A DNA stretch of 64,000 bases from Eubacteriales bacterium (lineage in GTDB: Bacteria > Bacillota > Clostridia > Lachnospirales > Lachnospiraceae): the NCBI GenBank assembly GCA_030536555.1, contig JAUNPU010000016.1, forward strand, positions 1 through 64,000. The letters are read 5' to 3'. This document shows positions 4,553 to 43,571 of the stretch, in pieces (the stretch's first letter is position 1; the number at the start of each line of letters is the position of its first letter). A program made the position numbers and the translations under genes. The notes under the pieces were generated by a model that searched no databases, was not told the DNA's origin, and saw only the letters and a program-made list of their open reading frames with translations.

Positions 4553-4607
4553 GAAAGCGGCCTGGCAGGCATGAATCAGAATATGATGCGCCGGCCGGGC
4601 TGCTTTT
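4553..4607 (+). terminator. Probable intrinsic terminator or attenuator after the GrdB-like gene
   Basis: AAAGCGGCCTGGC (4554-4566) can pair, with bulges, with the GC-rich GCCGGCCGGGCTGCTTT segment ending near 4606, followed by a run of T. It sits between the PTS/GrdB-like genes and the Ntn hydrolase, so it may lower expression of the downstream genes. The stem is imperfect. Confidence 0.5.
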
Positions 4608-4638
4608 TCTATATAAATAAATGCAGGAGGATAGGATT

Positions 4639-5595
4639 ATGTGGGGTATGATTGCAACCTGGAGAATGGCAGTTGAGGGTGTGACAAAAGGATGTGAGAT
4701 GCTGAAGGAGGGCGGCAATGCAGGCGACGCCATCGAGACAGCAGTTCGTGAGGTGGAGGATTTTCCGTACTACAAGTCGGTAGGCTACGGCGGTCTGCCT
4801 AATGAGGAAATGGAAGTGGAGCTGGACGCGGCATTTATGGATGGCGACACCCTGGATGTGGGCGCTGTGGCAGCCATCAAGGACTATGCGAACCCGGTTT
4901 CCATCGCAAGACGTCTGAGCCACGAGAAGGTCAACAGCATGCTGGTGGCTGAGGGCGCAGAGAAGTTCGCGCACAAGGAAGGCTTTGAGCGCAAGAATAT
5001 GCTGACCGACCGCGCAAAGGCACACTACCGCAAGCGGGTAAAGGAAATCAAGCAGCAGGAGTTAAAGCCCTACTCCGGCCATGACACCGTAGGTATGGTA
5101 TGTCTGGATGCCCACGGCAAAATGACCGCCGCAACCTCCACCAGCGGCCTGTTCATGAAGAAGAAGGGCAGAGTGGGCGATTCTCCGATCGTAGGCTCCG
5201 GATTCTACGCAGACAGCAAGGTAGGCGGCGCAAGCGCAACCGGTCTGGGCGAGGACCTGATGAAGGGCTGCATCTCCTATGAGATTGTCCGCCTGATGAA
5301 GGAAGGCATGCATCCCCAGGCAGCCTGCGAGCTTGCAGTGACCCGGCTGGATCAGGAGTTAAAGGAGCGCCGCGGCGTGGCTGGCGACCTGTCTCTGATC
5401 GCCATGAACACGAAGGGCGAGTGGGGTGTAGCTACCAACATTGAGGGCTTCTCCATCGCCGTTGAGACCGAGGAGCTGGAGCCGACTGTATATCTGGTAA
5501 CCCGTCAGGAAGACGGACACTGCACCTTTGAGGTGGCGTCCCAGGAGTGGATGGAGAACTACATGAAGACCAGAATGGCTCCGATTGAGGAGTAA
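4639..5595 (+). CDS. N4-(beta-N-acetylglucosaminyl)-L-asparaginase-type Ntn hydrolase
   Basis: The protein matches glycosylasparaginase (aspartylglucosaminidase), an Ntn hydrolase that splits the GlcNAc-Asn bond of N-glycan remnants. Autocleavage would occur in GHDTVGMV, freeing Thr150 as N-terminal nucleophile; the substrate-binding RVGDSPIVGSG motif and a GGASATGLGE turn are present. I place the start at the ATG at 4639 (318 residues), because an upstream in-frame ATG at 4621 would put the AGGAGG site (4625-4630) inside the coding region. No signal peptide is visible, so it acts in the cytoplasm, consistent with a substrate imported by the upstream PTS. The family also contains isoaspartyl peptidases; context favours the glycosylasparagine role but does not prove it. 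Confidence 0.85.
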   Translation: MWGMIATWRMAVEGVTKGCEMLKEGGNAGDAIETAVREVEDFPYYKSVGYGGLPNEEMEVELDAAFMDGDTLDVGAVAAIKDYANPVSIARRLSHEKVNSMLVAEGAEKFAHKEGFERKNMLTDRAKAHYRKRVKEIKQQELKPYSGHDTVGMVCLDAHGKMTAATSTSGLFMKKKGRVGDSPIVGSGFYADSKVGGASATGLGEDLMKGCISYEIVRLMKEGMHPQAACELAVTRLDQELKERRGVAGDLSLIAMNTKGEWGVATNIEGFSIAVETEELEPTVYLVTRQEDGHCTFEVASQEWMENYMKTRMAPIEE

Positions 5596-22680: not shown

Positions 22681-24093
22681 GTGTTGAGACGAGGAAAACG
22701 CCGGGATATGGCGGATGTGAATGTATATACAGCCAGACGGCTGAATGAAATGGCCCAGTCCCTGGGACTTCTGGCCAGGTCCTGCATGGATGCGGCAGGA
22801 CAGGAGCGGGGGCTGACCCGGGAGGACGCCCTGGCTGCCATGCAGATGGCAGGCGCGATGGTGTGCGGCGACTGCAGCAAATGCAATCTGTACCGGGACA
22901 ATGAGAAGGAAGACAGCTATTATCTCTACTACCTGCTGCGGGCTTTTGAACAGAAGGGTCATGTGGAGTATGAGGACATGCCCCGGTTTTTTCTGGAGAC
23001 CTGCAGGAATAAGGAAGATTATGTGGGCCAGCTGAACCGGAATCTGGGACGGGCTACCATGAATCTGGAGTGGAAGAACCGGTTCCTGGAGAGCCGGGAT
23101 ACGGTCATGGTGCAGTTTCGGGAGCTGGCGCTGATTCTGGAGGAATTTGCCGCCCAGATGGAGGCGGCGAAGGATATTACCGGGCTTCGCGGAGAGGTGG
23201 TGAAGCGGGTATTTCGGGCAAATCATATGGTGGTGGAAAATATGCTGCTGCTGGAATACGGAAATCATCACCGGGAAGCCTATCTGACCGTGCGGACGAC
23301 AGGAAACCGGTGCATGACGGCAAAAGAGGCAGCGGAGATTCTGGGACATGCACTGGGAGGGACGGAGTGGTATGCGCCGCGGGATACCCGGGCGCTGGTG
23401 ACCAGACAGGCTGCGACAATCCGGTTCTCGGAGGCGGGAAGCTACCGGATGGGATATGGCGTGGCGCGGCTGGGAAAGCAGGGAGAACCGGTATCCGGGG
23501 ACAATTACATTTATTCCGGCAATACGCCCGGCCAGATTGTCATGAGCCTGTCTGACGGCATGGGAAGCGGCGAGCTGGCATTTCAGGAGAGCGAGCAGGT
23601 GGTGGAGCTGACCAGGCAGCTGCTGGAGACCGGCTTCTCATCGCGGGCAGCTCTCAAGATGGTAAATACAATCCTGCTTCTTCACGGCACTCAGCAGCAT
23701 CCTGCCACCCTGGATCTGGCCTGCGTAGATCTGTATACTGGCGTGCTGGAGGCGATGAAGCTGGGCGCTGTGGCAACGTTTATTGTGGGGCGGGACGGCG
23801 TGGAGCTTCTGGAAGCAGGGGAGGTGCCGGCCGGAGTGGTGAACCAGGTAGAGCCGCTGCTGCTCTCCCGCAAGCTCTGGGACGATGACCGCATCGTGAT
23901 GATGACCGACGGCGTGCTGGACGCCTGCCCAGGGGAAGACAAGGAGGCCGGCATGAAGGAATACATGGAGAGCATGCCGGTGAAAAGTCCCCAGGATATG
24001 GCTGAGCGGATTCTCCGGTTCGCCTGCTACGGAAGCATCGCAGCCCGGGATGACATGACGGTACTGGTAGCCGGAATCTGGAAGCGCGGATGA
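22681..24093 (+). CDS. spoIIE: SpoIIE-type PP2C phosphatase without membrane domain
   Basis: A 470-residue protein matching the central regulatory part and C-terminal PP2C phosphatase of SpoIIE: the CGDCSKCNLYRDNE cysteine cluster, VSGDNYIYS, SLSDGMGSGELAFQES and the closing ARDDMTVLVAGIW. SpoIIE dephosphorylates SpoIIAA to activate sigma F in the forespore. The ten-helix N-terminal membrane domain of the roughly 800-residue Bacillus protein is absent: divIC ends only 57 bp upstream. Either this lineage uses a soluble SpoIIE or it is a paralogue. Start GTG 22681 behind AGGAGGGG; TTG 22684 is an alternative. Confidence 0.85.
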   Translation: MLRRGKRRDMADVNVYTARRLNEMAQSLGLLARSCMDAAGQERGLTREDALAAMQMAGAMVCGDCSKCNLYRDNEKEDSYYLYYLLRAFEQKGHVEYEDMPRFFLETCRNKEDYVGQLNRNLGRATMNLEWKNRFLESRDTVMVQFRELALILEEFAAQMEAAKDITGLRGEVVKRVFRANHMVVENMLLLEYGNHHREAYLTVRTTGNRCMTAKEAAEILGHALGGTEWYAPRDTRALVTRQAATIRFSEAGSYRMGYGVARLGKQGEPVSGDNYIYSGNTPGQIVMSLSDGMGSGELAFQESEQVVELTRQLLETGFSSRAALKMVNTILLLHGTQQHPATLDLACVDLYTGVLEAMKLGAVATFIVGRDGVELLEAGEVPAGVVNQVEPLLLSRKLWDDDRIVMMTDGVLDACPGEDKEAGMKEYMESMPVKSPQDMAERILRFACYGSIAARDDMTVLVAGIWKRG

Positions 24094-24169: not shown

Positions 24170-24198
24170 TTGCAACAGCAGGAAAAGTCAGGTATAGT
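24170..24198 (+). promoter_or_regulatory. Promoter reading into hairpin-array element 1
   Basis: TTGCAA (24170-24175), exact 17-bp spacer, TATAGT (24193-24198). The predicted start near 24205 lies just before the first hairpin of the repeat element, so the element would be transcribed as RNA, either separately or as the leader of tilS. Confidence 0.55.
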
Positions 24199-24215: not shown

Positions 24216-24483
24216 GTTTTGGACAATTTTGAGATAAATTCCTGAAAATTGTCCAAAGAGATATGGAAAATCCGGATTTCAGGTTGAAAAAGCGATGGAA
24301 ACGCGGCTGTTTGGACAATAAACACGGATTTCAAGGAAAATTATCCAAAAATCCGGAAATTTTGGATAATGAAAGGCGGATTTGAAGATAATTGTCCAAA
24401 ATATGCTTTATGTCAACTTTAAAATGCTCAAAACTGCCTGCGATTGGACAATTAACCCCTGAAATGGCATTTTATTGTCCAAT
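24216..24483 (+). repeat. Hairpin-array element, copy 1 (four TTGGACAA/TTGTCCAA stem-loops)
   Basis: Eight copies of one octamer alternate in orientation at 24219, 24249, 24311, 24341, 24362, 24392, 24444 and 24475 (TTATCCAA at 24341 and TTGGATAA at 24362 are one-base variants). Within each inverted pair the spacing is 30-31 bp. Stems reach 13 bp (first) and 11 bp (last), and flanking bases change together: TTT...AAA in most pairs, GAT...ATC in the last. The same architecture recurs at 42166-42444. No protein is encoded. It fills most of the 546 bp between spoIIE and tilS. Confidence 0.88.
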
Positions 24484-24494
24484 CGGACATGATG

Positions 24495-24582
24495 GCAGGA
24501 AGAATGGCGGTTGACGCTGCAGGAAGAATGGCGGTTGGCATCGCAGGAAGAACAGCGGCTGATGCCGCAGGAAGAATCTTAA
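24495..24582 (+). repeat. 24-bp tandem repeat upstream of tilS
   Basis: GCAGGAAGAA starts units at 24495, 24519, 24543 and 24567, exactly 24 bp apart. Copy 2 of the hairpin element is followed by a single GCAGGAAGAATC at 42448, so this looks like an expanded tail of the same element. Confidence 0.85.
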
Positions 24583-24639
24583 GTGGCAGACGGAGAAAGA
24601 AAAGATACAGAACCGGCGCTTGCCGGGGCGGAGAATATC

Positions 24640-26337
24640 ATGTGGAAGAAAGTAAGAAACTTTATTCGGGAATACGGGCTGCTGGAATCGGGAGATCGGG
24701 TGATTGTGGCAGTGTCAGGCGGGGCAGATTCAGTCTGCCTTTTGTCTGTTTTATGCCGGATTGCAGCAGAAGGCGGCAGCCAGATCCGGCTGCAGGCAGT
24801 TCACGTTCATCATGGCCTCAGGGGATCGGAGGCGGACAGGGATGAGGCATTTGTGCGGAAACTGTGTGACGGATTTGGTGTTCCGCTGACTGTGGTACAT
24901 CGGAATGTGGCGGAATATGCAAGAGAGCATGGGCTTTCCACAGAGGAAGCCGGACGGATTCTGCGCTATGAAGCCTTTGAGGAAGCGGCTATTCGGTGGA
25001 AGCAGGAAGAAACTCAGCCCTCCGGTCCGGCTGCATCCCCTGACCTGACGGTCTCCACAGCATCTGTAAAAATAGCGATTGCCCATCATCAGGACGACAG
25101 CGCAGAGACAATCTTGTACCACCTGGTGCGAGGCAGTGGCCTGAAGGGACTTGCGGGAATCCGCCCGGTGCAGGGCGACCGAATCCGACCGCTGCTGTGC
25201 GTGAACCGGGGGGAGATACTGGATTATCTGCGGGCGGAAAATCTGAGCTGGTGTGAGGATTCCACCAATGCTTCCGGAGATTATACAAGAAACCGGATCC
25301 GGAATCAGATTCTCCCGATGCTGAAGGAGGAAGTGAATCACCGTGCTGTGGAAAATATTCTTCATGCAGGGGAAATCTTTGCTCAGGCGGACAGCTATCT
25401 GGAGCAGCAGGCAGAACGAATCTGGGAAGCAGCCGGGCAGAGCAGCCGGGATCACAGGAACGTATCGGAGGCAGTTGAAACGACGGCAATCCCAGGTCGT
25501 CCGCCGGTCCTCGTTCGCCAGCCCTCCACCGCCCTCACTGCCGAGATTCGTCTCGATGTGCTTCGCGCACAGCCGGTCATCCTCAGAACCTATGTGATTC
25601 GTCGGATGATCGACCAGGTGACACCGGGGTGGAAGGATATCACATTCCGCCATTTTCAGCAGATTGCGGAACTGGCGGACCGCAGGACAGGCAGCCGCAT
25701 CGATCTTCCATGGGGCATGCAGGCAGTGCGGGAATACGAGATTCTGCGAATCGAGAGAAAACCGGATTTTCAGACAGATCCGGCGAACTCGTCCACCGAT
25801 AAACCGACTGCATCAGCAAGCCTGGTGAGCTCGTCCGCCGACCAGCCGACTTCGCCGGCAGACCCGGCAACCGACTTCGCCGACCAGCCGACTTCGCCGG
25901 CAGATCCGGCAACCGACTTTACCGACCAACCGGCTCCGCTCCCCGTCCAAATCCCTCTGCCGCTTCCCGGCGGCCCGGCGATTCAGGCGGGCGGGCTGGT
26001 GCTGCGGGCATTTTCAAGAAAAAAACAGCAGGAAATCCCCAAAAACCAGTATACGAAATGGTTCGACTATGATAAAATTAAAGATACGCTATCCGTAAGG
26101 TGTCGGCAGACCGGCGACTACCTGATGCTGCCTGGCGGCGGAAGGAAAGCTGTGACCCGTTATATGATCGATGAGAAGATTCCGAGAAGCCTCAGGGAAG
26201 AGATCCCGGTGCTGGCGGAGCGCGATCATGTTCTCTGGGTGATCGGCTACCGGATCAGCGAATATTATAAGATTACCACTACTACCGAGACAATCTTACA
26301 GGTAAGTAACTGCGCAGAAGAAGGGCTGCACGGGTAA
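24640..26337 (+). CDS. tilS: tRNA(Ile)-lysidine synthetase
   Basis: TilS makes lysidine at C34 of the AUA-reading tRNA-Ile. The PP-loop ATPase motif VAVSGGADSVCLL, the VHHGLRG and AHHQDDSAET motifs, and the C-terminal domain are present. At about 565 residues it is longer than the usual 450-480, because of two low-complexity inserts, one around residues 275-310 and one Pro/Thr/Asp-rich near residues 380-440. Start ATG 24640 behind GGGCGGAG; a GTG at 24583 is less likely. The tilS-hpt-ftsH order is as in Bacillus. Confidence 0.92.
   Translation: MWKKVRNFIREYGLLESGDRVIVAVSGGADSVCLLSVLCRIAAEGGSQIRLQAVHVHHGLRGSEADRDEAFVRKLCDGFGVPLTVVHRNVAEYAREHGLSTEEAGRILRYEAFEEAAIRWKQEETQPSGPAASPDLTVSTASVKIAIAHHQDDSAETILYHLVRGSGLKGLAGIRPVQGDRIRPLLCVNRGEILDYLRAENLSWCEDSTNASGDYTRNRIRNQILPMLKEEVNHRAVENILHAGEIFAQADSYLEQQAERIWEAAGQSSRDHRNVSEAVETTAIPGRPPVLVRQPSTALTAEIRLDVLRAQPVILRTYVIRRMIDQVTPGWKDITFRHFQQIAELADRRTGSRIDLPWGMQAVREYEILRIERKPDFQTDPANSSTDKPTASASLVSSSADQPTSPADPATDFADQPTSPADPATDFTDQPAPLPVQIPLPLPGGPAIQAGGLVLRAFSRKKQQEIPKNQYTKWFDYDKIKDTLSVRCRQTGDYLMLPGGGRKAVTRYMIDEKIPRSLREEIPVLAERDHVLWVIGYRISEYYKITTTTETILQVSNCAEEGLHG
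25837..25930 (+). repeat. 42-bp in-frame tandem repeat in tilS
   Basis: GCCGACCAGCCGACTTCGCC begins units at 25837 and 25879, nearly identical over 42 bp, with a third partial unit from 25921. They encode a 14-residue ADQPTSPADPATDF unit between TilS domains. Confidence 0.85.
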
Positions 26338-31164: not shown

Positions 31165-31246
31165 GGATGGGTTCCCGAGTGGCCAAAGGGGGCAGACTGT
31201 AAATCTGTTAGCTGTGCTTTCGGTGGTTCGAATCCACCTCCATCCA
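31165..31246 (+). tRNA. tRNA-Tyr (GTA)
   Basis: Acceptor GGATGG pairs with CCATCC; anticodon GTA in GACTGTAAATC; T-arm GGTTCGAATCC; a long variable arm of class II type, as bacterial tRNA-Tyr has. The CCA end is not encoded. Confidence 0.95.
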
Positions 31247-31308
31247 TTTACTGAACGCAGCAGATCAGCTGATTCGCGAGAACAGCGGAAGGTCGATGCG
31301 GGCAGAAT

Positions 31309-31394
31309 GCCGCAGTGGCGGAACTGGCAGACGCACAGGACTTAAAATCCTGCGGGACTAATCTCCCGTGCCGGTTCGATTCCGGCCTGCGGCA
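31309..31394 (+). tRNA. tRNA-Leu (TAA)
   Basis: Acceptor GCCGCAG pairs with CTGCGGC, discriminator A. Anticodon TAA in GACTTAAAATC, long variable arm (class II), T-arm GGTTCGATTCC. CCA is not encoded. Confidence 0.95.
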
Positions 31395-31435
31395 TTTGGA
31401 ATATTGGTTTTGATTGGCGACACGAGAAAAAGGCA

Positions 31436-31464
31436 TTGACAAATCTGAAGATATACGATAAACT
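31436..31464 (+). promoter_or_regulatory. Promoter of tRNA-Phe and tRNA-Gly(TCC)
   Basis: TTGACA (31436-31441), exact 17-bp spacer, TAAACT (31459-31464), 20 bp before tRNA-Phe. Confidence 0.65.
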
Positions 31465-31484
31465 AGATGAGTCGGTTTGAGCAA

Positions 31485-31557
<73 letters not shown>

Positions 31558-31560
31558 TCT

Positions 31561-31631
31561 GCGGGTGTAGTTCAATGGTAGAACACCAGCCTTCCAAGCT
31601 GGATACGTGGGTTCGATTCCCATCACCCGCT
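31561..31631 (+). tRNA. tRNA-Gly (TCC)
   Basis: Acceptor GCGGGTG pairs with CACCCGC, discriminator T; anticodon TCC in GCCTTCCAAGC. It begins three bases after tRNA-Phe, so both come from one transcript. Confidence 0.95.
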
Positions 31632-31642
31632 CTGATATGTAC

Positions 31643-31671
31643 TTGACTTTATACATGTGTTGCGCTATAAT
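31643..31671 (+). promoter_or_regulatory. Promoter of tRNA-Gly(GCC)
   Basis: TTGACT (31643-31648), exact 17-bp spacer, TATAAT (31666-31671). It gives the last tRNA its own start. Confidence 0.75.
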
Positions 31672-31712
31672 AGCATGTGTTTAGTACATAAATTGAATAA
31701 GTTTTATTTTAT

Positions 31713-31785
31713 GCGCGAGTGGCTCAGTTGGTGGAGTACGACCTTGCCAAGGTCGGGGTCGCGGGTTCGAGTCCCGTCTCGCGCT
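31713..31785 (+). tRNA. tRNA-Gly (GCC)
   Basis: Acceptor GCGCGAG pairs with CTCGCGC, discriminator T; anticodon GCC in ACCTTGCCAAGGT; T-arm GGGTTCGAGTCCC. Confidence 0.95.
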
Positions 31786-39176: not shown

Positions 39177-40589
39177 ATGATCGATCCCACCAGGCAGAGG
39201 CAGCTGCAGGAACTGAATATGGTGGAGCTTTGTACCAGAATCTGGCAGAATTCCAGAAATGAGCTGTATCTGAATATGCGGTATCTGGATCTGTCTCTGA
39301 GCAGCCTGGGGTTCGAGGCGGACCCGGCGTGCCGGGGCGTGGGGACAGACGGATTTGTGATTTATTATCATCCGGAATATTTCTGTGATCTGTACCGACG
39401 GGGGCGGGTGCTGGTGAACCGTTCCTACCTTCATATGGTGCTTCACTGTCTGTTCTGTCACATGGATACCCGCGGCAACCGGGACCCGGTTTACTGGAAT
39501 CTGGCGTGTGATATTGCCATCGAGTCGGTGATTGACGGGCTGTATCTGAAGTGTGTACATGTGCCGGTGTCGGCATTTCGGCGGGACTGGTACGGGCGGC
39601 TGGGAAAGAAGCTTGCGGTGCTGAATGCCGAGGGCATTTACCGGATGCTGCGGGATATGCAGCTGGAGGAGCGCCAGCTGGAGCGGATCGCGGCGGAGTA
39701 TTATGTGGATGACCATTCGTACTGGGAGCTGCCGGAGGACACGCCGAAGACCAGCATTGTGCGGCAGAATCAGTGGAGCGACAACCGGCATAAGGTTCAG
39801 ACGGAAATGGAGACCATGGGCAATCAGCAGGATGAGGAGACGAAGAGTCTGCTGGAGCAGGTGCAGGTGGAGAACCGGGAACGGTATGATTATAAGCGAT
39901 TTCTGCGGAAGTTTTCCGTGCTGCGGGAGACGATGCAGGTGGACGAGGACTCATTTGACTACGTATTTTACACCTACGGGCTGTCCCTGTATGGCAATAT
40001 GCCGCTGGTGGAGCCGATGGAATCGAAGGAAATCAACCGGATCGAGGACTTTGTGATCGTGATTGACACGTCCATGTCCTGCTCCGGGGATCTGGTGAGG
40101 CGGTTTCTGGAGGAGACCTGCGATGTGCTGTGTGAGACGGACACTTATTTTAAAAAGACTAATATCCACATTATCCAGTGTGATGAGGCGGTGCAGCAGG
40201 ATGTGCAGATTACCAGCCGGGAAGAGTTGGAGCAGTATATGGAGCATTTTACTATCATAGGACAGGGCGGGACGGACTTCCGACCGGCATTTGAGCATGT
40301 GAATCAGATGGTGGGGCGGGGGGAGTTCCATAAGCTGAAGGGACTTTTGTATTTTACGGACGGCGAGGGAATCTATCCGGTGAAGCGTCCGGTGTATGAT
40401 ACGGCATTCGTGTTCGTGAAGGACCAGTATACGGATATTTCGGTGCCGGCCTGGGCGATGAAGGTGATACTGGAGCCGGAGCAGATACTGGAGTCGGGGC
40501 AGATGCCGGAGCTGGGACGAATGATGGCGACAGGGCAGGCAGCATCGGAAGGCGGCTGGCAGAGTCAGGCAGAAAGGGAGATAACATGA
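39177..40589 (+). CDS. VWA-like protein with degenerate metallopeptidase-like domain (DUF2201-type)
   Basis: A 470-residue protein. The N-terminal part (HMVLHCLFCHM around residue 87) resembles the putative metallopeptidase region of DUF2201 proteins but lacks the Glu of HEXXH. The C-terminal VWA-like domain has the MIDAS-type IDTSMSCSG and the IIGQGGTDFRPAF loop. Such proteins pair with MoxR AAA ATPases, and the MoxR gene overlaps this one by 4 bp. The tail after residue 440 is Met/Gly/Gln-rich low complexity. Confidence 0.82.
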   Translation: MIDPTRQRQLQELNMVELCTRIWQNSRNELYLNMRYLDLSLSSLGFEADPACRGVGTDGFVIYYHPEYFCDLYRRGRVLVNRSYLHMVLHCLFCHMDTRGNRDPVYWNLACDIAIESVIDGLYLKCVHVPVSAFRRDWYGRLGKKLAVLNAEGIYRMLRDMQLEERQLERIAAEYYVDDHSYWELPEDTPKTSIVRQNQWSDNRHKVQTEMETMGNQQDEETKSLLEQVQVENRERYDYKRFLRKFSVLRETMQVDEDSFDYVFYTYGLSLYGNMPLVEPMESKEINRIEDFVIVIDTSMSCSGDLVRRFLEETCDVLCETDTYFKKTNIHIIQCDEAVQQDVQITSREELEQYMEHFTIIGQGGTDFRPAFEHVNQMVGRGEFHKLKGLLYFTDGEGIYPVKRPVYDTAFVFVKDQYTDISVPAWAMKVILEPEQILESGQMPELGRMMATGQAASEGGWQSQAEREIT

Positions 40590-42124
40590 ATATCAAGCGT
40601 GCAAAACAGGAAATCAAGGATACGATTGCGGCGTATCTGCTGAAGGACGAATACGGGTCCTATGTGATTCCGGCCATCCGGCAGCGCCCGATTCTGCTGA
40701 TCGGACCGCCGGGAGTGGGTAAGACGCAGATTATGGAGCAGATCTCGCAGGAATGCCAGATCGGGCTGGTGTCCTACACCATCACCCATCACACTCGGCA
40801 GAGCGCCATCGGACTGCCCTTCATCGAGCATAAAATGTTCGGCGGACGGGAGTATGCGGTGACGGAGTATACCATGAGTGAAATCGTGGCGGCGGTGTAT
40901 GAGAAGATTGAGCAGACCGGGATGTCGGAGGGAATTCTGTTTATCGATGAGATCAACTGCGTGTCCGAGACGCTGGCGCCGACCATGCTTCAGTTTCTGC
41001 AGGGCAAGACCTTCGGCAATCACAAGATTCCCGAGGGCTGGATCATCGTGGCGGCGGGGAATCCGCCGGAGTACAATAAGTCCGTCCGGGAGTTTGACAT
41101 CGTCACTCTGGACCGAATCCGCAGCATTCAGGTGGAGCCGGACTTTGGCGCCTGGAAGGAGTATGCGGTGCAGGTGGGCATTCATCCTGCGATTCAGTCC
41201 TACTTAAATATCCGGCGGCAGCACTTCTGTCAGATCGAGACGACGGTGGACGGGAAGCTGTTTGCCACGCCCCGTGGCTGGGAGGATCTGTCACAGCTGA
41301 TTGGAGTCTATGAGACCCTGGGACAGAAGGTGGACCGGGATGTGGCGATGGAATACATCCAGTTTCCGAAGATTGCCAGGGACTTTGCCAACTATCTGGA
41401 GCTGTACTACAAGTACCAGAATGACTATCAGGTGGAGGAAATCCTGGCAGGCAGACCGGTGACCGGCGTGTACGAGAAGCTGGAGAAGGCAGCATTTGAC
41501 GAGCGGATCAGTGTGGTCGGCCTGCTGCTTTCGGGCCTTCAGGAGAAGTTCCGTGAAGTCTGTCGGATGGAGGATATGCTGGAGCTGCGGATGAAGAAGC
41601 TTCGGGAGCTGCACGGGATGGGGGTATTTGGAGATGCTGGAATGACGAGTGACAGCGCCACGGTGGCATCTGCTATTCAGACTTTTTCGGACATGCTGGA
41701 AGACTTTCAGGAAGAGCAGGGCAGGAAGCAGGAGAGCGGTCTTCTCTCACGCCTGGAGCTGCGGCGGATGCGGGAGGTGACGGCAAGGCTGGAGCAGGAT
41801 CTGCAGACCATCCGCAAGGAAGATTTTTCCGATGCTGCGGCGGTCTGGGATCGCCTGCGGGAGCTGTTTGCCGCTGACAGCGACCAGTACGAGGACCTTG
41901 TGGACGAGGCGGGGGAGATGCTGGAGCATGCATTCGACTTTATGGAAGCGGCATTTGGCGGCAGCCAGGAGATGGTGCTGTTCGTGACGGAGCTGAACAC
42001 CGGATTCTACAGCGTGCATTTCCTGCAGGATTACGAGTGCGAGCGGTATTACCGCTACAACAAGGAGCTGCTGTTCTCGGACGAGGAGCAGGAGATTGGG
42101 CGGATTCTGGATCAGGTGAGGTAG
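40586..42124 (+). CDS. MoxR-family AAA ATPase
   Basis: A 512-residue AAA+ protein with Walker A LIGPPGVGKTQ, Walker B ILFIDEIN, sensor 1 VAAGNPPEYN and an arginine-finger region before the C-terminal helical extension. MoxR ATPases act as chaperones that load metals or remodel complexes with VWA partners. The stop is followed within 45 bp by the hairpin-array element. Confidence 0.9.
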   Translation: MNIKRAKQEIKDTIAAYLLKDEYGSYVIPAIRQRPILLIGPPGVGKTQIMEQISQECQIGLVSYTITHHTRQSAIGLPFIEHKMFGGREYAVTEYTMSEIVAAVYEKIEQTGMSEGILFIDEINCVSETLAPTMLQFLQGKTFGNHKIPEGWIIVAAGNPPEYNKSVREFDIVTLDRIRSIQVEPDFGAWKEYAVQVGIHPAIQSYLNIRRQHFCQIETTVDGKLFATPRGWEDLSQLIGVYETLGQKVDRDVAMEYIQFPKIARDFANYLELYYKYQNDYQVEEILAGRPVTGVYEKLEKAAFDERISVVGLLLSGLQEKFREVCRMEDMLELRMKKLRELHGMGVFGDAGMTSDSATVASAIQTFSDMLEDFQEEQGRKQESGLLSRLELRRMREVTARLEQDLQTIRKEDFSDAAAVWDRLRELFAADSDQYEDLVDEAGEMLEHAFDFMEAAFGGSQEMVLFVTELNTGFYSVHFLQDYECERYYRYNKELLFSDEEQEIGRILDQVR

Positions 42125-42165: not shown

Positions 42166-42444
42166 TTTTGGATAATAAATGGCGAAAACTTAAAAAATTG
42201 TCCAAACCCTGGGAACGGAGGTCGATTTTGGGCTGAAAAACAGGGGGTGGCGAAGGGGTTTGGACAATAAAAGCCTGATTCCATGAAAAATTGTCCAAAA
42301 ATCCGGGAGTTTTGGACAATTAGAGGCAGGTTAGAGGAAAAATTGTCCAAAACAAGCTTTATGTCAACCGATTTAAGCCTATAATCGTTGCTTGCGAGGA
42401 CGGGTTGGACAATTTTTGGATATTATCTAATTAATTGTCCAAAA
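42166..42444 (+). repeat. Hairpin-array element, copy 2
   Basis: Octamers at 42168 (TTGGATAA), 42198, 42260, 42291, 42312, 42343, 42405 and 42435 alternate TTGGACAA and TTGTCCAA with pair spacings of 30, 31, 31 and 30 bp, as in copy 1. Between the pairs the spacings (62, 21, 62) match copy 1 (62, 21, 52). The segments TTTGGACAATAAA, TCCAAAAATCCGG and GCTTTATGTCAAC occur in both copies at the same places. It fills most of the 427 bp between the MoxR gene and mscS, which hold no gene. Confidence 0.88.
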
Positions 42445-42551: not shown

Positions 42552-43571
42552 ATGACAGGAAGTTTGATACAGATGGCAGGCGGAGTGCTGAGATTTACCA
42601 GTGATGCGGCGGCTGCCACAAAGGCAATGGCAGAGACAGCGGCAGAAGCAGCAACCACAGCGGCAGAAACAGAAGCCGCCGGTCTGGTTCTGGAGACCCA
42701 GGCGGTGGCAGTGGAGCTGCAGCAGGATCTGCAGCAGCTGCAGCCCAATGTGATGCTGGAGACCATCAAGAGCTGGACGCCGGGGCTTTTAGGTTTTGGA
42801 TACCGGCTGCTGATTGCGGCGCTGATCATATTTGTGGGAAGCAGGATTGTGAAGGTGACCCGCCGGCTGCTGAAGCGGACCTTTGAGCGTATGGGCATAG
42901 ACTTGAGTGTGAGCAAGTTCCTGACTTCGGTGGTGGACGCCGGAATCTATGCGCTGACGATCTTCATTGCGGCAGACAAGATCGGCATTCCGTCGGCATC
43001 CATCATTGCACTGCTGGGTTCCGCAGGTCTGGCAATCGGCCTTTCTCTGCAGGGAAGTCTTGAGAATGTGGCAGGCGGTATCCTGATCATGCTGACCCGC
43101 CCGTTCGGAATTCATGATTACATTGTGTGCAACGGCATGGAAGGAACGGTTCAGAATATCGGTCTGACCTACACCACAATGGTGACGGTGGACAACAAGA
43201 AGATTATCATTCCCAACGGCAGCATTTCCAACAGCACCATTGTCAATGTAACTGCACAGGAGAAGCGTCGTGTGGATGTGGAGGTTGGGATCGGCTATTC
43301 TGCCGATATGAAGGCAGCCAAGGACATTATCCGCAGGGTTTACGAGAATCATCCGCTGGTGCTGGCGGAGGATGGAATCACGGTTTACGTGGGTGAGCTG
43401 GCAGACAGCGCCGTGATGATCGGCGGCCGCGGCTGGACGAAGACAGAGAACTACTGGACGGTCCGCTGGGATGTGCTGGAGCAGATCAAGGAAGCCTTTG
43501 ATCAGGCGGGAATCGAGATTCCATTTAACCAGATGGATGTGAATATCCGGACGATGCCGGAAGGAAAATAA
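42552..43571 (+). CDS. MscS-family mechanosensitive channel
   Basis: A 339-residue small-conductance channel protein. An Ala/Thr/Glu-rich N-terminal stretch of about 60 residues precedes three membrane segments; the pore helix LGSAGLAIGLSLQGSLENVAGG and the following beta domain (GTVQNIGLTYTTMVTVDNKK) are typical. It releases solutes on hypo-osmotic shock. The start follows AAGAGGAGAG. Confidence 0.93.
   Translation: MTGSLIQMAGGVLRFTSDAAAATKAMAETAAEAATTAAETEAAGLVLETQAVAVELQQDLQQLQPNVMLETIKSWTPGLLGFGYRLLIAALIIFVGSRIVKVTRRLLKRTFERMGIDLSVSKFLTSVVDAGIYALTIFIAADKIGIPSASIIALLGSAGLAIGLSLQGSLENVAGGILIMLTRPFGIHDYIVCNGMEGTVQNIGLTYTTMVTVDNKKIIIPNGSISNSTIVNVTAQEKRRVDVEVGIGYSADMKAAKDIIRRVYENHPLVLAEDGITVYVGELADSAVMIGGRGWTKTENYWTVRWDVLEQIKEAFDQAGIEIPFNQMDVNIRTMPEGK

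Follow-up and report, generated by a model that had tools for sequence, protein, structure and literature searches.

The intergenic element found at two places in the window (the whole 64-kb stretch of DNA analyzed here) is, judging from its sequence, very probably a protein-binding array that works as double-stranded DNA. Among the three readings offered by the first-pass annotation, namely a structured non-coding RNA, a mobile non-coding repeat, and an array for a DNA-binding protein with sites three helical turns apart, the last is the best supported, and every spacing in the element corresponds to whole turns of the helix.

Element copies in the window and in the source genome

Copy 1 (24218-24483, plus strand) is located between spoIIE (22681-24093) and tilS (24583-26337), and copy 2 (42167-42443, plus strand) lies between genes for an AAA+ ATPase (40586-42124) and an MscS-type channel (42552-43571). 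Each copy contains four octamer pairs. In copy 1, pair P1 (24219-24256) is composed of TTGGACAA at 24219-24226 and TTGTCCAA at 24249-24256; pair P2 (24311-24348) of TTGGACAA at 24311-24318 and the degenerate TTATCCAA at 24341-24348; pair P3 (24362-24399) of the degenerate TTGGATAA at 24362-24369 and TTGTCCAA at 24392-24399; and pair P4 (24444-24482) of TTGGACAA at 24444-24451 and TTGTCCAA at 24475-24482, with the outer flanks GAT and ATC. A centre of 13 bp (24349-24361) separates octamers 4 and 5. The pairs of copy 2 are P1 (42168-42205; the degenerate TTGGATAA at 42168-42175 and TTGTCCAA at 42198-42205), P2 (42260-42298), P3 (42312-42350), and P4 (42405-42442). A second conserved motif, TTATGTCAAC (GTTGACATAA on the reverse strand), occurs on the plus strand at 24408-24417 in copy 1 and at 42359-42368 in copy 2.

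The strict alternation of octamers described earlier was confirmed in both copies, as were the within-pair spacing of 30-31 bp (30/30/30/31 in copy 1 and 30/31/31/30 in copy 2) and the inter-pair spacings of 62/21/52 and 62/21/62, respectively. The eight octamers reported for each copy are present, but three of the 16 are inexact (TTATCCAA at 24341, and TTGGATAA at 24362 and 42168). TTGGACAA was seen 14 times in the window against 1.7 expected, and none of 100 shuffles reached 14. A detector blind to the octamer, which calls inverted pairs of any 8-mer that recur with the same geometry, returned exactly copy 1 and copy 2 in the window and zero calls in a Markov-resampled window. The window also contains three tandem 24-bp repeats (GCAGGAAGAATGGCGG...) at 24492-24577, directly after copy 1, and a cluster of five tRNA genes (Rfam RF00005) at 31165-31785.

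The element had been regarded as present twice, which turned out to be a large undercount. A profile built on the central half of the element (model R1) identified at least 93 distinct elements in the source genome (3.59 Mb, 59 contigs); this number is a lower bound because all 150 candidates scored matched, and a minimum because many copies lie close to the ends of contigs. The exact pair TTGGACAA-N18..40-TTGTCCAA occurred 150 times in this genome, compared with 0 occurrences of the reversed-pattern control, and 327 pairs were found when TTGGAYAA was allowed. For layout analysis, 81 complete four-pair elements were extracted from stretches of the source genome, with start-to-start spacings searched within limits of 24-37 bp for pairs, 12-34 bp for the centre, and 30-100 bp for the outer gaps. 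The element consists of four TTGGAYAA/TTRTCCAA pairs and is 250-285 bp in length. The 324 within-pair spacings were 31 bp (179), 30 bp (142), 29 bp (2), or 32 bp (1), and octamers 4 and 5 were 21 bp apart, start to start, in all 81 copies. The outer gaps measured 50-52 bp (103), 61-62 bp (58), or 72 bp (1) with no intermediate values, so that the outer arms change by steps of 10-11 bp gained or lost; the two gaps vary separately (51/62, 51/52, 62/62, 62/51, and others). The element is mirror symmetric, in that P4 and P3, once reverse complemented, resemble P1 and P2, respectively, and the half-arrays P1-P2 and P3-P4 flank the fixed 21-bp centre.

The consensus of the 648 pooled half-sites was (T)TTGGA(C72/T28)AAT(T/A)(A/T), with near 2 bits of information at positions 1-5 and 7 and C or T at position 6. 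The T variant of the octamer is concentrated in the two central octamers (52% and 65%). The conserved block ends 1 bp beyond the outer octamers in the 81 copies, with T before and A after. Spacers of equal length shared a mean identity of 49% (maximum, 86%), and the octamers were nearly invariant. Judged by the divergence of the spacers, the copies are old or fast-changing, and the near-invariance of octamers amid such spacers is most simply read as purifying selection. A small subset of copies carries symmetric changes flanking the centre (CATGTCCAA/TTGGACATG; columns 33-63 and 34-62), and this symmetry may be kept for some reason. One array of the source genome (L027:3084-3735) is extended by tandem pairs with a 93-bp period and lies beside an N run, indicating that some arrays expand and break assemblies.

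Helical phase and relatives in other genomes

Seven spacing classes (21, 30.5, 41, 51.5, 53, 61.9, and 72 bp), drawn from the source genome, the congener G010, and the Bacillaceae group described below, are each no more than 0.1 turn away from a whole number of helical turns of 10.4 bp (Monte Carlo P, 8e-5). Part of the spacing regularity is inherited, so the 81 copies do not amount to 81 independent tests and only the distinct classes are independent. Since the spacings follow whole turns of B-DNA, the rule belongs to double-stranded DNA. Pairs in which both octamers are weak were depleted within class (10 seen vs. 18.6 expected, P = 0.0025), which is consistent with cooperative binding in which a strong site helps a weak partner.

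When model R1 was searched over 23 congeners, clear relatives were detected only in G010 (58 rows; best E value, 2.8e-9); G008 gave two weak matches near 1e-3, and the remaining congeners gave none. The layout in G010 is rearranged (e.g., < 41 > 31 < 53 < 72 <) and the phase is kept (Rayleigh resultant 0.84 at 10.4 bp). An element of G010, L159:5228, combines the layout of the source genome, 82-52-82/92, with a different core, TTTTGGTA. No array of any octamer was found at the orthologous spoIIE-tilS loci of siblings, and octamer-blind scans of 280 kb of the sibling G018 and of smaller samples of four others called none. Viral contigs gave no match, and surveys of the family and the phylum (397 and 398 genomes) revealed elsewhere isolated single pairs only, at about the chance level. 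The array-free congeners G012, G019, G020, and G005 (L208-L222) carry a different interspersed repeat, a tandem series (about 95 bp) of perfect hairpins linked through TATAACTTATC and CTATAATATAACTTATC boxes.

Screening the GTDB representative genomes for three octamers next to one another yielded ten loci, hosted by Neobacillus drentensis, N. novalis, Bacillus sp., Ureibacillus manganicus, Lederbergia panacisoli, and Phocicoccus schoeneichii. These arrays share the octamer and pair geometry of the elements in the source genome. They differ in being simple tandem, alternating arrays (30-31/21-22 bp) at few loci per genome that lack the mirrored 51/62-bp arms, and no published name was found for them. 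The arrays of the Bacillaceae group are in phase (Rayleigh resultant 0.82 at 10.3 bp), but the Bacillaceae and Phocicoccus arrays are weaker evidence because some of their units are near-identical tandem copies, and tandem duplication explains much of the regularity within them. The 51-bp period (17 codons) of the Bacillaceae arrays opens spurious repetitive reading frames (L050:1958-2305, L051:4606-5148, and L049:3883-4155), which may be annotated as proteins.

Alternative readings and known repeat systems

A structured non-coding RNA or an array of RNA hairpins is very improbable. The inverted pairs are able to pair over 8-10 bp, and the minimum free energy of both window copies was below that of shuffled sequences (z -4.7 and -5.4); however, low folding energy is expected of inverted repeats whatever their function. 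Stems would need a C-to-T change in one arm to be matched by G-to-A in the other, and the compensating U-A pair at the variable octamer position was rarer than chance (10 vs. 18.6 expected); this depletion of the double change is the opposite of base-pair compensation. C.A mismatches were present in 78 of the 324 pairs on the plus strand and 83 of 324 on the minus strand, and covariation was within the shuffle range (475 of 500 shuffles as high, with 38 central segments). The GAT/ATC double change in pair 4 of copy 1, which the first-pass annotation had taken as a sign of selection on base pairing, is real, but no general covariation was observed across copies. Furthermore, the loops are fixed at 22/23 nt, the spacings follow the DNA turn, no orientation bias was seen among copies, and Rfam has no family for the element, only tRNAs being detected in the window at gathering thresholds. 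A promoter-like sequence proposed upstream of copy 1 (24170-24198) does match (9/12), but no conserved promoter was found at the element flanks, and a strong match (≥10/12) within 80 bp on either side was present in 0% of copies. The RNA reading was thus rejected on shuffles, pair counts, and an RNAalifold analysis. The same annotation had named a lack of further copies or homologues, and of covariation, as outcomes that would count against the element; copies and relatives were found, whereas the lack of covariation that was observed removes the RNA reading only.

The second conserved motif, TTATGTMAAC (reverse, GTTKACATAA), follows octamer 6 at a fixed distance of 7-8 nt in about 60 of the 81 copies, and 17 to 19 copies have a match to it in the opposite arm, for the most part at the mirror-image position. 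It was enriched 82-fold over surrounding DNA in a sample, and it resembles the XerD half-site of dif, which we take to be a resemblance only. The motif also reads as a -35 box (TTGACA/TTTACA) with a possible AATTAT -10 box over octamer 6. The arrays might accordingly be read as operators, in which an octamer-binding protein would block an internal promoter made up of TTGACA(TAA), a 16-17-nt spacer, and the AATTAT overlapping octamer 6, but this is improbable. The fixed offset of the block agrees with such an arrangement, as do a promoter match of 10/12 at 24416-24388 in copy 1 and the occurrence of AATTAT in 28 of 58 copies with the block compared with 3 of 23 without it. On the other hand, the block is missing from about a quarter of the copies, the conserved TAA past the -35 box is left unexplained, the promoter scan of copy 2 gave no such match, and the downstream genes differ, with none common to the arrays. 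The neighboring genes are unrelated, being co-directional at 44 copies, divergent at 16, and convergent at 14, and element orientation relative to co-directional genes was 25:19. The arrays thus show no promoter, terminator, or gene-orientation bias, and this lack of context bias suggests an architectural role at the level of the chromosome, or a role in transposition or recombination at the level of the element, rather than control of neighboring genes.

The strongest alternative, a possibility to be taken seriously even though we hold it to be the less probable side of the question, is that the elements are the remains of non-autonomous mobile elements, the octamers being transposase or recombinase sites and the half-arrays the two ends. 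As in MITEs or transposon remnants, many dispersed homologous copies with inverted symmetry were found, at least 93 of them in the source genome and mirrored over their whole length. The examined arrays of G010 share no positions with those of the source genome, and since the copies are homologous, past spread by transposition is likely. The exchange of the core for TTTTGGTA in an unchanged layout fits co-evolution of a transposase with its ends, and in G068 two octamer pairs lie within a longer inverted repeat (L043). However, there was no target-site duplication (longest flank repeat, mean 3.41 vs. 3.35 in shuffled sequences), recent identical copies were absent, half-elements were not in surplus, and no recombinase adjoined the arrays in the loci examined. 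Neither an autonomous partner with the same ends, looked for beside sampled arrays, nor a recurrent transposase or regulator gene beside the arrays was found. In addition, octamers and phase are strongly conserved in old copies, which would not be expected if transposition alone mattered. The earlier suggestion of a mobile repeat therefore holds for the mode of spread, but neither a transposase nor target duplications nor young identical copies were detected. The probabilities that we assign to the alternatives overlap with that of the preferred explanation, a protein-bound array, because the transposon-end and architectural readings are compatible.

The elements were also compared with known systems. 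REP/BIME sequences with RAYT consist of a contiguous REP hairpin, a conserved foot tetranucleotide, and a RAYT gene. Like these and other interspersed palindromic repeats, the present elements are species-restricted and have many intergenic copies and inverted units, but their units are 8-bp sites in whole-turn register instead of contiguous hairpins, the profile shows single sites of 8-10 bp with no hairpin units, and no RAYT-type gene was noticed close to the copies. RUP, BOX, Correia, and bcr1 are MITE-type repeats, which are likewise non-coding, dispersed, of inverted symmetry, and 100-300 bp long; the present elements differ from them in the absence of target duplications and near-identical copies and in the conservation of octamers and spacing in old copies. 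The sites of ComK and NrdR are also spaced in whole helical turns, but they are single regulatory sites with other motifs and not dispersed repeats. CRISPR arrays are built of direct repeats, about 25-40 bp long, that are separated by unique spacers of comparable size, and the earlier exclusion of a CRISPR was upheld: the 8-bp units alternate in orientation, and the gaps are 13, 22-23, and 42-64 bp. A cluster of DnaA boxes (TTATCCACA) was rejected on the consensus ATTRTCCAA(A), in which A replaces C at the penultimate box position. Octameric wrapping regulators such as RemA (DUF370) and the Lrp type offer a parallel in that an eight-fold protein could wrap DNA with its sites on one face (PMC8481266). 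A RemA operator was nevertheless rejected; RemA binds AT-rich repeats of 7 bp that are poorly conserved and separated by 3 bp (PMC8481266), whereas the present sites are near-invariant, differ in motif, and are spaced 21/30/51/62 bp apart.

SpoIIID as a candidate reader and the proposed role

We infer from the presence of spoIIE and spoIIID that the source is a spore-forming member of the Bacillota. The SpoIIID consensus is WWRRACARNY, which was matched by 53% of the 648 sites, and the RRACAR core was found in 69%. SpoIIID may be put forward as the most likely named candidate for the protein that reads the arrays, although the chance that it is the reader is rather low. It is likewise a tentative proposal that the arrays are clustered SpoIIID sites, in which monomers in the mother cell would fill eight phased sites and bend or bridge the chromosome or soak up SpoIIID. 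The half-site TTGGACAATT contains the GGACAA core of the SpoIIID site TAGGACAAGC, which the protein occupies as a monomer (PMC11180830); monomer binding of this kind is what asymmetric sites in mixed orientation need. Many of the regions to which SpoIIID binds in B. subtilis show no regulatory effect, more than one site was present in each of five regions tested, and the protein has been suggested to act architecturally by folding the chromosome of the mother cell (PMC517825). These regions resemble the present elements in their GGACAA core, in having several sites per region, and in their many places without regulatory effect, but no phased eight-site array has been described among them (PMC517825). 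A spoIIID gene was found in the source genome, in G010, and in 5/5 array-bearing Bacillaceae tested; that of the source genome is intact, and its HTH recognition segment, SKSTVHKD, is identical to that of B. subtilis.

Several observations weigh against SpoIIID. A spoIIID match was absent from the array-carrying Phocicoccus (G465, with a six-pair array) and from G068 (two pairs), array-free siblings also carry the gene, 27% of the sites have GGATAA, which is not known as a SpoIIID site, and the TTTTGGTA element of G010 retains the layout without the SpoIIID core. The motif match moreover arose after many regulators had been considered. Both array-carrying species checked have a truncated copy of the 5' part of spoIIID: in contig C48 of the source genome it is 95.7% identical over 161 bp and lies 7 kb from the intact gene (L267:9563-9723 and 2568-2728), and in G010 it is 77.8% identical over 99 bp at a distance of 1.4 kb (L268:3160-3258 and 4565-4663). 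The interval of the duplicate in the source genome contained no recombinase or obvious array-binding gene. In the array-free G012, some 4.2 kb of DNA with a serine-recombinase-like gene interrupts spoIIID near codon 38 (L269:4744-6315, G012:C8), an arrangement reminiscent of a skin-type developmental excision.

In the mechanism that we propose for the protein-binding array, eight monomers of one protein, SpoIIID or else another protein of the lineage, would occupy the eight sites on one face of the helix, a strong site making up for a weak partner. Contacts across the centre and arms would compact the DNA into a nucleoprotein body by bending, wrapping, or bridging it. The elements would have spread as a non-autonomous mobile repeat and then been retained because the array was bound. 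We tentatively suggest, as one possible and still rather unlikely outcome, a chromosome-folding element, in which at least 93 platforms would each hold eight monomers (of a lineage-specific protein or, in the mother cell, of SpoIIID) that wrap or bridge DNA, and distant spore-forming Bacillota would have reused the octamer and the phase rule.

Interspersed repeats in bacteria are commonly put down to hairpins, terminators, or transposon debris. Selection for the helical face at eight sites sets the present elements apart from the interspersed repeat families that we could name. No published name for the repeat was found in the literature searched, most subscription journals lying outside its scope; searches on the octamer returned primers and unrelated matches only, and those on named Bacillota repeats nothing relevant. 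Across dozens of sites in a single genome, the elements point to selection on where the sites lie around the helix, a constraint to be expected from a protein-DNA complex alone, and the family supplies natural spacing variants (51, 62, and 72 bp). Should SpoIIID prove to be the reader, the suggestion made in 2004 that it folds the chromosome of the mother cell can be tested directly; if it does not, there is a DNA-binding system still to be found.
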